From NCBI GenBank assembly GCA_913061055.1, contig CAJXVA010000002.1:1-64000 (forward strand): DNA of 64,000 bases, in the 5' to 3' direction. The stretch is from an uncultured Pseudomonadota bacterium (GTDB lineage: Bacteria; Myxococcota_A; Polyangia; Nannocystales; Nannocystaceae). The notes beneath the pieces were generated by a model. The model saw only the letters and a list, made by a program, of their open reading frames with translations. It was not told where the DNA came from and made no database searches. A program made the position numbers and the translations under genes. Shown piece by piece: positions 51,555-56,908 of this stretch (position 1 is its first letter; each line of letters starts with the position of its first letter).

Positions 51555-52163
51555 CCGACCCCTGATGGTCGAGGTCGGAGTTCGGCACCTCGCTCCTCTC
51601 ATCTGACAGTGCCCCACCAATATGAGGGGTGCGGTGTCACGATAGAGCGCGCCTGAGAATCGACACTGGCACGTAACTCTTGTCGCAGACGGCCGTTGAC
51701 TCCACACACCACCGGACCCTGATCGACGCTCAATCTTGCCGGCCTGCGAACCGGCCAAGACGAAGCTTGGCTCTCGGAAGAATGCGGCTCCTGGGCCGTA
51801 TTCGGCGAACTGCGTTGCGCCGCGCGCAAAACCGCGCAGACGCTGTTCCTAGCCGCAGATCGATGTTCAGCTTCCAATGAGCGGTTTCGCCCGCCGGCTC
51901 GTATGGGGACGCGTGCTCGCGTTTCGCGCCCCCCGCGTGGGTCAGGATGGGACTGCGGTCGGGGCGCTTTGACGCCTCACGCCTTTGGCGCCGCCATTTG
52001 CGAACCGGAGGCCGCGGACGTTGTTCGGCGCGTTCTACGCCAGCTGCACGGCAAGCTGGCTTACGGCTGTTGGTTGTCAGGAAGGACTGATCCCCTTACT
52101 GCTATTCAGGCGGCTTTTCGCGGGTAAGGAGACTTGCCTCGATGCGCCAGGGGAATGGATCCG
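51555..52163. other. Intergenic region before copper/thiol operon
   Basis: About 600 bp without a convincing gene and visibly less GC-rich than its surroundings. It contains a perfect inverted repeat (52039-52060), an imperfect one (CTTGCCGG..CCGGCCAAG, near 51735-51760), and AAGGAG (52124-52129) before a TTG at 52134. It should hold the operon promoter and any operator, but I could not identify a known metal-regulator site. Confidence 0.4.
52039..52060. repeat. 7-bp perfect inverted repeat
   Basis: GCCAGCT and AGCTGGC separated by 8 nt, about 100 bp upstream of the operon. Possible operator or RNA hairpin. Confidence 0.5.
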
Positions 52164-52916
52164 ATGAAGACAGGTCGTCAAAAATCGCCGTGGACGAGCG
52201 CACTTTGCGCTCCGATTGCTATCATGTCCGTGCTCGCGTTCGCGCCAGGAGAGGCGCGGGCCGAAGAGCCCTACGGTGATTCGCCGGGCGATCAGCCCTA
52301 CGATTTCTCGAAGAAGTTCTACAAGAAGAACGGCATCAAGAAGAAGAATCTCGTCCTGACCATTCAGGAGCGGGGTGGCGGCGTCGGTGCGGTCGTCGAG
52401 GATTCCAAACCCGACAGCTCCCGCAGCAAGGTCCGCATCATCGCGACCAACGGTGGATACGACGCCGGCGGTGCACTGCTCTACTACCCTGACCCGCCGG
52501 CGTTCCTCCCCGTCGAAGGCTTCCGCAAGGGCAAGAAAGGCAAGCAAGCGCGGGCCATCGCGGATGAGTTCCGAGCGTTCATCTTCCCGCGCGCCGACGG
52601 AGACCCGTTCTCTCCTGGCCCGCCCAACCGTCGGCAAGACAACGTATTCGACACGGGCCTCGGCTACCTGTCCGAGAACCCGCTTGGGTTATGGACGATC
52701 GAGTTCGTGCAGTACACCGAGGCCGCGCTCATCGGCGGCACGCCAGCACAGAACGCCCTGATGTTGACGATGGCCGATCGCAACGGCTTGGACGAAGACG
52801 GCACGCCGATCATCCGTCGCAAGCACGAGATCTTCGCGCTCGAAGAGGCGGGCTTGGTCACCCTCTACAGCCGCGACAAAGAAACGTTTGAGAACGGGCC
52901 ACCCTGGGTCATATGA
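52164..52916 (+). CDS. Secreted protein, first gene of copper/thiol operon
   Basis: 250 residues from ATG 52164; AGGGGA lies ~10 nt upstream. TTG 52134 (after AAGGAG) and ATG 52155 are alternatives. A classical signal peptide (ALCAPIAIMSVLAFAPGEARA) precedes a mature part with a basic stretch (KKFYKKNGIKKKNLVLTIQERGGG) and beta-type phrases (SKVRIIATNGGYDAGGALLYY, WTIEFVQYTEAALIGG, NALMLTMADRNGLDEDG). No Cys-based metal site. Unknown family. Its stop overlaps an ATG (52913) that opens the apparent true beginning of the oxidase. Confidence 0.65.
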   Translation: MKTGRQKSPWTSALCAPIAIMSVLAFAPGEARAEEPYGDSPGDQPYDFSKKFYKKNGIKKKNLVLTIQERGGGVGAVVEDSKPDSSRSKVRIIATNGGYDAGGALLYYPDPPAFLPVEGFRKGKKGKQARAIADEFRAFIFPRADGDPFSPGPPNRRQDNVFDTGLGYLSENPLGLWTIEFVQYTEAALIGGTPAQNALMLTMADRNGLDEDGTPIIRRKHEIFALEEAGLVTLYSRDKETFENGPPWVI

Positions 52917-52943: not shown

Positions 52944-52946
52944 TCA

Positions 52947-54830
<1,884 letters not shown>

Positions 54831-54844
54831 CTGCGGCTGTACTC

Positions 54845-54889
54845 TCCGGCGGTTGACGACGACGCAAGCGTGTCGCATCAACCGCCGGA
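54845..54889. repeat. 12-bp perfect inverted repeat
   Basis: TCCGGCGGTTGA pairs perfectly with its inverse at 54878-54889 across 21 nt, between the oxidase stop and the SCO start. No T-run follows, so it may be a processing or stabilising hairpin or an attenuator rather than a simple terminator. Confidence 0.7.
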
Positions 54890-54920
54890 ACTCGCTACGG
54901 TTCAGGCCCGCTGTGTCTCC

Positions 54921-55727
54921 ATGACCCTCCGAGATCTCCACCCGACCCACTGGCGCCCCGCAGCGCTCGCGGCATGTCTGCTCGCGTTCGCCGGCTGCAA
55001 CGAATCGACGGTCGACACCCCGCCAAAAGCCGCCGCTCCCCCTGCACAGGAGCAGGCGGACAAGCCGGACAAGGAAGTGGTTGTCGACCCAGCGGCGCTC
55101 TACGACCCGCCCACGGCCGACGTGGCCCCGCCGAAGGTGTCGGGAAAACGCCAGTCCGCCCCAGACTTCCCGGACGTCCTGCTCACCGACCACACCGGAA
55201 AGAAGGTCCGGTTCTACGAGGAGTTGGTCAAGGGCAAGATCGTGTTCATCAACTTCATGTACGCGACGTGCACCGGGACGTGACCGGTTACGACGGCGAA
55301 CCTCGTGAAGGTTCGGGACAACATGGGCGAGCGGTTTGGCAAGGACGTCTTCTTCGTCTCCATCACGCTGATGCCAGAGCAGGACTCCCCTGCGGTTCTC
55401 ACCAAGTTTGCGAACCGCTACAAGATCCTCGAGAAGCCAGGCTGGACGTTCGTGACCGGACGGCCCCGCGACATCGAGCTTCTGCGTCGCCGGCTGGGTT
55501 TTTCCTACATCGACCGCGAGCTCGATGCCGACCGCACCAACCACATTCGATTGGTCCTCGTCGGAAACGAGCCCTTCGGATGGTGGGGTACGCTGCCCGG
55601 CGCTGACATGTCGTCGAACCAGCTGACGCAGTATCTCAAGTGGATGGAGCCGGGCGTGTCCGGCATGAAGACGCCGCAGACCATCCCGATGAAGAAGAAA
55701 AAGAAGAAAGCGAAGAGCGGGGAATAG
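54921..55727 (+). CDS. SCO1/SenC copper chaperone, candidate selenoprotein
   Basis: One open frame from ATG 54921 to 55727 is interrupted only by TGA at 55281-55283; read through it gives 268 residues. Lipobox LLAFAGC, then an Ala/Pro/Lys linker. The thioredoxin-like SCO domain starts at about residue 90: FPDVLLTDHTGKKVRFY, VKGKIVFINFMYAT, then C117-T-G-T-U121-P-V-T-T-A-N-L, followed by VFFVSITLMPEQDSPAVL and the metal-binding His in RTNHIRLVLV. In SCO proteins the motif is CxxxCP, so the TGA replaces the second Cys, a copper/redox ligand. A hairpin lies just downstream (55297-55315). SCO proteins load copper onto oxidase centres or act as periplasmic thiol oxidoreductases. Alternatives: a nonsense mutation or a sequencing error. 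Next gene is 3 bp downstream. Confidence 0.7.
55281..55315 (+). promoter_or_regulatory. UGA codon plus SECIS-like hairpin
   Basis: UGA followed by C (a weak stop context). After 13 nt, CGAACCT (55297-55303) pairs perfectly with AGGTTCG (55309-55315) around the 5-nt loop CGTGA, which has G at its second position. In E. coli fdhF the SelB-binding stem-loop begins 11 nt after the UGA. The geometry fits a bacterial SECIS. Confidence 0.55.
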
Positions 55728-55730
55728 GTC

Positions 55731-56432
55731 ATGGACAAGCGCATCCTGATCGTCGGAGGTGCCGTAGCAACGGCCGGCCTCCTCTATCTCTTGCTTTCGG
55801 GGGAAGGCCCCGATTCACAGGCCTCTGACGTGGCCGAAGGGGCCGTCGCGACGGCCGACAAACCGTCTGGGGACTCGGCCAAGGCGGGCGCGAGCGGATT
55901 GCCCACGGCCCGCAAATCGATCTCTGGGGACGGCGAAGACGACGAAGACGCCTGGAATCCAGGTGGCGAACATGAACCGACTGCCGACGACTCCCAGAAG
56001 TGGCATTGGCTGCAGCAAGACCTCGATCGCATGATCGACGACACGCGACCGAAGGCTCGCAAGCGAATGACCGCAGAGGAGTTCCGCGCCGGCTACCTCA
56101 AGTCGAGCGCCGAATACCTCGAGCTCACCGCGGACGAGCGCACGAAGTTCGACGCTGCCGCCAACCGGGCCGTCGAGTCGATCGAGGACGCGCGCGCCGC
56201 CATGCAGACGGCGCAGGCCGACACGCCTTACGACGAGGACAAGCCAGAGTCGATCGAGGCCTGGAAGAACGCCCAGGCGACGTTCAAAGAGCAACAGGCC
56301 AACGCTGCCAAGGCTTTTTCCGCGTCGCTCCCGGTGCGGTCTCGGACCACACTGATGCGCGAAGAGTCGCTGCGATGGGTCGTACGCCTCGACTTCGGGC
56401 TCAAGCACGCGGGTCGGGCCGCAAGCCAATGA
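55731..56432 (+). CDS. Single-span membrane protein in copper/thiol operon
   Basis: 233 residues starting 3 bp after the SCO stop. An N-terminal anchor (ILIVGGAVATAGLLYLLL) precedes an acidic, low-complexity linker and a helical region (KWHWLQQDLDRMIDDTRPKARKRMTAEEFRAGYLKSSAEYLELTADERTKFDAAANRAVESIEDARAAM). No Cys. The mature part should project into the periplasm, where it could act as an adaptor for its neighbours. Unknown family; overlaps the next gene by 4 bp. Confidence 0.75.
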   Translation: MDKRILIVGGAVATAGLLYLLLSGEGPDSQASDVAEGAVATADKPSGDSAKAGASGLPTARKSISGDGEDDEDAWNPGGEHEPTADDSQKWHWLQQDLDRMIDDTRPKARKRMTAEEFRAGYLKSSAEYLELTADERTKFDAAANRAVESIEDARAAMQTAQADTPYDEDKPESIEAWKNAQATFKEQQANAAKAFSASLPVRSRTTLMREESLRWVVRLDFGLKHAGRAASQ

Positions 56433-56908
56433 GTCGGCCTCGGGTGAGCGCAGGGATCGCTGCCGCGGCCTTCCTCGTGGCGATCGGCGGCTGCGCCCAA
56501 AGCGAAGGGCAGCCCGCTCCGCAGGCGGAGTCCATCCCCGCGGAAACGTGGCGGACCGACGAGGATGCGGCCTTCGCCGAGGCCAAGAAGAGCGGCCGGC
56601 ATGTTGTGGTCGACTTTCGTGCGATGTGGTGCGAGCCGTGCAAAGAGGTCGAGGCCATCCTCGCCCAGGACGCGGTCTTCTCCGAGATCACAAAAAGCTT
56701 CGTTCCCCTCGAGTTCGACATCAGTGGACTCACCCCCGACGACAACGAGCTCAAGGCCAAGTACAAGGCGTTCGAGCTCCCGGCGGTGATCTTCGTGAGT
56801 GCTTCGGGCGACGAGCTCGGCCGGATCGACGGGGTGGTCTCCACGTCGGATGCGTTCTTGAGCCAGATGCGAGGCATCCTGGACAAGCATCCGGCCCCGG
56901 ACAGCTGA
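56429..56908 (+). CDS. Thioredoxin-fold lipoprotein
   Basis: 159 residues, ATG overlapping the previous stop. Lipobox AIGGC (Cys22). Thioredoxin fold: HVVVDFRAMWCEPCKEVEAIL with the active-site pair WCEPC (Cys68, Cys71) and a cis-Pro in FELPAVIF (Pro118). Similar in length and motif to DsbD-gamma-like and DUF255-type periplasmic reductases (for example TDEDAAFAEAKKSGRHVVVDF). It probably passes electrons to, or is regenerated by, thiol partners in the periplasm, such as the SCO protein encoded upstream. Confidence 0.88.
   Translation: MSRPRVSAGIAAAAFLVAIGGCAQSEGQPAPQAESIPAETWRTDEDAAFAEAKKSGRHVVVDFRAMWCEPCKEVEAILAQDAVFSEITKSFVPLEFDISGLTPDDNELKAKYKAFELPAVIFVSASGDELGRIDGVVSTSDAFLSQMRGILDKHPAPDS

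Follow-up and report, generated by a model that had tools for sequence, protein, structure and literature searches.

What is a single TGA codon doing inside an otherwise uninterrupted gene for a copper chaperone? The question is raised by a gene of the SCO1/SenC family at positions 54921..55727 (+ strand) of a 64,000-nucleotide stretch of DNA from an uncultured bacterium, hereafter the window, whose reading frame contains just one stop before the terminal TAG, namely a TGA at codon 121 (55281..55283, +; context YATCTGT[UGA]PVTTANLVKVR). If the codon is read as selenocysteine (Sec, U121) the product has 268 residues and the second cysteine of the CxxxCP motif is replaced by Sec. The initial annotation had described exactly such a frame and placed the TGA at the second cysteine; the former claim is borne out by the frame itself and by a Pfam score of 57.1 bits, the latter by the cysteine found at this codon in 75 relatives (among the best 80 of 391). 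The frame downstream is indeed intact, its length however being 147 sense codons followed by the stop rather than the 148 codons originally given.

The family assignment of the read-through protein is well founded. Pfam SCO1-SenC matches it with an E-value of 2.3e-15 and a score far above the gathering cut-off of 22.8, solved SCO proteins match it as well, and NCBIfam returns no match. For an AlphaFold model based on six sequences, whose pLDDT averages 66.8 and is higher in the domain, all of the Foldseek PDB ranks 1-26 are SCO or putative SCO-type entries, the best with an E-value of 2.9e-9. As regards the CxxxC motif and the distal histidine of the family, the first cysteine (Cys117, TGC, 55269..55271, +) and His208 (CAC, 55542..55544, +), the candidate third metal ligand, are retained and are invariant in alignments A1 and A2, and with Sec in the second position the motif reads CxxxU, which fits the family pattern provided that Sec is taken as equivalent to cysteine. 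A lipobox-like LLAFAGC26 recognised by eye near the N-terminus suggests a membrane-anchored lipoprotein. An open frame after a TGA is in itself little evidence, since chance alone produces 46 comparable open stretches split by a TGA in the six frames of the GC-rich window; this particular TGA stands far above chance because homology extends on both sides of it and because it is conserved in other genomes. On the opposite strand, an open frame of 866 amino acids (52944-55544, -) runs across the SCO gene and the oxidase gene upstream of it, probably only as a by-product of the high GC content.

To assess the conservation of the codon, an alignment of four sequences was searched against GTDB, each species being represented by one genome; this yielded 391 confirmed relatives, the best 80 of which were kept. 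Among these 80, the position of codon 121 is occupied by TGA in five and by a cysteine codon in 75, and neither TAA, TAG nor any residue other than cysteine occurs there. The five TGA genes belong to Planctomycetota OFTM205 (L089) and ARS63 (L115), Myxococcota PW6 (L090) and IP29b (L092), and UBP10 UBA1149 (L091); they come from separately assembled genomes and are 45-60% identical over the aligned length. In five of the 75 cysteine loci, at first missed by the motif search, the motif is longer by one residue and the second position is cysteine all the same. The nearest cysteine genes of the same family are a pair in a single genome (G002) with the motifs CPDTCP and CPDSCP. Several candidates were discarded along the way: L085, L086 and L211 have cysteine at both motif positions and their stop elsewhere, L219 has TGC at the site, and G419 and G425, considered as additional Sec genomes, are identical to L090 and L092.

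These data bear directly on the most mundane explanation, a broken SCO gene in which TGC or TGT became TGA by mutation or through an error of sequencing or assembly. One altered base would suffice for this, and the initial annotation had named it as the rival to be reckoned with. The same TGA in five separately assembled and considerably diverged genomes contradicts it, as do the lack of any TAA or TAG at this codon among the loci examined and the coding constraint downstream, so that we regard it as extremely improbable. It is the retention of the same UGA in five other genomes that makes this look like a real selenoprotein gene rather than a broken one; had the reading frame merely decayed, relatives with random stops could have been expected, and the codon is cysteine or TGA throughout the best 80 of 391. 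The constraint itself is apparent from a comparison of the window with L089 over the 122 codons after the TGA, where 20, 10 and 66 differences fall on the first, second and third codon positions, respectively, 49 codons are changed synonymously and 78% of the residues are identical. Other pairs of Sec genes display a similar third-position pattern, weaker for the most distant, and the excess of third-position changes past the TGA therefore indicates that the downstream part is translated and under selection.

The six TGA genes group in a single clade (support 99/98) in a tree for which the TGA column had been replaced by X; a quick tree gives 97. As this single clade crosses at least two phyla, one origin combined with some horizontal transfer is suggested by the sequences, for which the transfer of a selenoprotein gene between a planctomycete and the myxobacterium Plesiocystis provides a published parallel (PMC4807772).

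If UGA 121 is decoded as Sec, a selenocysteine insertion (SECIS) element would be expected close behind it, and the window contains a SECIS-like hairpin at 55297..55315 (+), CGAACCU-CGUGA-AGGUUCG, with a 7-bp stem and a 5-nt loop that has a G at position 2 and lies 20 nt beyond the UGA. The core of this element, GAACCU and AGGUUC separated by 5 nt, recurs in all six Sec genes with the same 20-nt spacing and with a G within the first two loop positions; the stem measures 6-7 bp, the seventh pair being present in four of the six. The minimum free energies over 45 nt range from -9.0 to -16.1 in the six genes, with the reservation that another fold may account for the 45-nt minimum of L089 and L115, whose hairpin itself amounts to -7.8 and -8.2. 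In all six genes the hairpin agrees with the bacterial SECIS rules for spacing, loop, stem and energy as quoted in PMC13188914. In plain folding energy the RNA behind the UGA does not surpass its dinucleotide shuffles in stability, and because these thermodynamic z-scores gave no support, the test of the hairpin was moved to its conservation relative to cysteine genes. For this purpose 57 cysteine genes are comparable in that they encode the same Asn-Leu and Val residues as the Sec genes; the inner six base pairs are closed in 6/6 Sec genes and in 2/57 of these (Fisher p 4e-7), counts that do not represent independent events because the six Sec genes form one clade. When synonymous codons are shuffled according to the codon usage of the window, 4-9% of the draws yield a closed stem. 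All six Sec genes and 17 of the 57 cysteine genes use GTT for the Val in the 3' arm; across five genes of the window, 19 of 136 Val codons are GTT. Compensatory changes lend no support to the hairpin because its inner six pairs never vary, and Rfam detects no known RNA near the SCO gene or on the contig with selA and selB. Two acidobacterial genes in which the cysteine codon is TGT (L094 and L103) possess a complete SECIS-like stem, possibly a remnant of a past Sec gene or else a product of chance.

The genome, an assembly of 10.65 Mb in 913 contigs that is 89% complete, encodes SelA (404.8 bits) and SelB (299.7 bits) on one contig as well as SelD (369.5 bits), which has an in-frame TGA of its own at the Sec position (motif AG-U-ASK). 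Of the machinery whose presence the initial annotation had proposed to verify, the three proteins are thus in place and selC was not found in the incomplete assembly: searches with Rfam, with DNA of the same genus and with a family-specific covariance model, in which a limited number of candidates was scored, retrieved no tRNA-Sec. Eight weak Rfam matches in the genome were rejected as Ser, Tyr, Leu or Arg tRNAs according to ARAGORN. A genome of the same genus does have a tRNA-Sec called by ARAGORN, and 40 of 59 relatives exceed the Rfam tRNA-Sec cut-off, a score that some other tRNAs reach too. A search for the dnaJ neighbour of the same-genus selC led to no more than another J-domain gene, located on a short contig, an outcome that is consistent with an assembly gap and does not prove one. 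Among the five other host genomes of Sec-SCO genes SelA is present in all and a tRNA-Sec called by ARAGORN in four, the best candidate of the fifth being a Ser tRNA. As separate observations, a Ser (GGA) tRNA occurs on both L003 and L001 (contigs C206 and C252 of the genome), and on C206 Ser and Tyr tRNAs are tightly packed, perhaps as a tRNA array on a mobile element.

A further possibility is that the UGA is decoded in some other way, by genome-wide reassignment, by near-cognate readthrough as tryptophan, or not at all, as a programmed stop with a short product. Some UGA readthrough occurs at a low level in general, which speaks for this family of explanations. UGA is however also an ordinary stop here, because three genes of the same operon (gene A, gene 4 and the thioredoxin-like gene described below) terminate in TGA; relatives have cysteine and not tryptophan at the site; SelA, SelB and a Sec-containing SelD are encoded in what we take to be a genome with the full Sec system; and the SECIS-like hairpin lies at the right distance. 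Taken together we consider alternative decoding very improbable, if marginally less so than a broken gene. The proposal of a selenocysteine SCO protein is thus supported by the conserved TGA, the hairpin and SelA/SelB/SelD, and residue 121 is, judging from these sequence data, almost certainly Sec.

What the protein does is addressed by its neighbourhood, in which gene A, a multicopper oxidase, the Sec-SCO gene, gene 4 and a thioredoxin-like lipoprotein follow one another on the + strand. The oxidase gene (52947..54830; Pfam Cu-oxidase_2, E 9.8e-21) lies immediately upstream of SCO, and a homologue of it is detected by tblastn at all five other Sec loci and at 73 of the 75 cysteine loci among the best 80 of 391 relatives. 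A GACAGC-type repeat (54771-54828) gives the oxidase a C-terminal tail of Asp-Ser repeats. Upstream of the oxidase, gene A (52152..52916, start provisional) has no Pfam match; it occurs in four of the five other Sec genomes, the contig of the remaining one breaking off too early, and at three of the 75 cysteine loci in the same set of 80. Gene 4 (55731..56432, 233 amino acids, likewise lacking a Pfam match) follows SCO directly; it recurs beside the Sec gene in four of the five other genomes, L115 giving a weak match (E 2e-5), and at 0/75 cysteine loci among those best 80 of 391, and its product may work specifically with the Sec form of SCO. The thioredoxin-like lipoprotein gene (56429..56908; Thioredoxin_7, PF13899, E 3.8e-13, motif CEPC) overlaps the end of gene 4 and has a homologue at only one other Sec locus, L090.

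Known SCO proteins bind one Cu(I) or Cu(II) via the cysteine pair of CxxxC and the distal histidine, and TlpA reduces ScoI (PMC7558416; PMC6696091). The mixed disulfide of TlpA and ScoI deposited in the PDB was made with ScoI C74S, and because this substitution removes the first cysteine, the second must be the bonded one. The explanation that we favour, and hold to be highly probable as a whole, is that of a Sec-containing SCO protein whose synthesis is directed by the hairpin and which probably serves copper for the adjacent oxidase. UGA 121 would be decoded as Sec by SelA, SelB, SelD and tRNA-Sec under the guidance of the downstream hairpin; the protein, which has CxxxU and a distal histidine and is probably located as a lipoprotein outside the cytoplasmic membrane, would most likely make copper ready for, or insert it into, the multicopper oxidase whose gene lies upstream, with Cys117, Sec121 and His208 as the putative copper ligands. 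An oxidised Cys-Sec bridge would be re-reduced by a thioredoxin-like protein, plausibly the one encoded two genes downstream. Selenium may ease this step, because the Sec position corresponds to the cysteine left intact in ScoI C74S when trapped with TlpA; it may accelerate TlpA-type reduction and, in addition, coordinate copper, possibly as a better soft-metal ligand, to the benefit of the oxidase.

The copper role with the neighbouring oxidase, which is argued from gene order and homology, we judge, considered on its own, slightly better supported than not. Its competitor is a real selenoprotein that acts as a thiol/selenol oxidoreductase or in peroxide defence instead of as a copper chaperone of the oxidase. 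Sec is typically selected for redox speed. Most selenoproteins are redox enzymes with a thioredoxin fold (PMC13188914), SCO may be a reductant rather than a copper donor in some systems (PMC7558416), and redox defence has been proposed for Sco (PMC7558416; PMC6307045). Copper is favoured by the retained His208 and by the multicopper oxidase gene that adjoins SCO at almost every locus of either version, Sec or cysteine, which leaves a purely redox role as a serious, albeit less probable, reading. Beyond the preferred copper role, the most far-reaching version of it, in which genetically encoded selenium is a native copper ligand, the metallochaperone brings a multicopper oxidase to maturity and the products of gene A and gene 4 are partners dedicated to the Sec version, altogether a selenium-dependent pathway of copper delivery, is put forward tentatively, at somewhat short of an even chance.

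The initial annotation did not count SCO among the described selenoprotein families, in line with the most complete list that we found, the table of 119 prokaryotic selenoprotein families and subfamilies in PMC13188914 (May 2026), from which SCO is absent; its text contains none of the terms SCO1, SenC, PF02630, cd02968 and COG1999. Searched by term, neither a 2022 review nor the deep-Sep paper yields SCO, the literature covered being openly licensed, so that an earlier unlisted report is possible. On present sequence evidence Sec-SCO is very likely a previously unlisted selenoprotein. It would bring a copper chaperone family of wide distribution into the selenoproteins, its CxxxU motif being new to the current family list, and connect the supply of selenium with the maturation of copper enzymes; annotation pipelines would split such a gene into two fragments or call it a pseudogene.

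Like the thioredoxin-fold selenoproteins already on that list (Prx-like, DsbG-like, the redoxin family PF08534 and UGC-TlpA; PMC13188914), the predicted protein carries Sec in place of a redox cysteine, with a SECIS-like hairpin just after the UGA of its gene, whereas none of the listed families is SCO or has CxxxU. With the SCO1/SenC chaperones (PF02630), including Bacillus Sco, Bradyrhizobium ScoI and human SCO1, it shares the domain, the thioredoxin-like fold, the position of the CxxxCP motif and the distal histidine; in contrast to these, its second cysteine is Sec, it is accompanied by the extra partner genes A and 4, and it resides beside a multicopper oxidase and not beside cytochrome oxidase genes. 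The closest counterparts are the 75 loci of cysteine-type SCO and multicopper oxidase in Methylobacter, Nitrosomonas, Acidobacteria and others, which belong to the same subfamily and have the oxidase upstream in nearly every case, but differ in having TGC or TGT, a stem that is usually incomplete, no gene 4 and only rarely gene A. Since matched Sec and cysteine versions thus stand beside the same oxidase, the gain from selenium over sulphur at a copper/redox site is directly testable.
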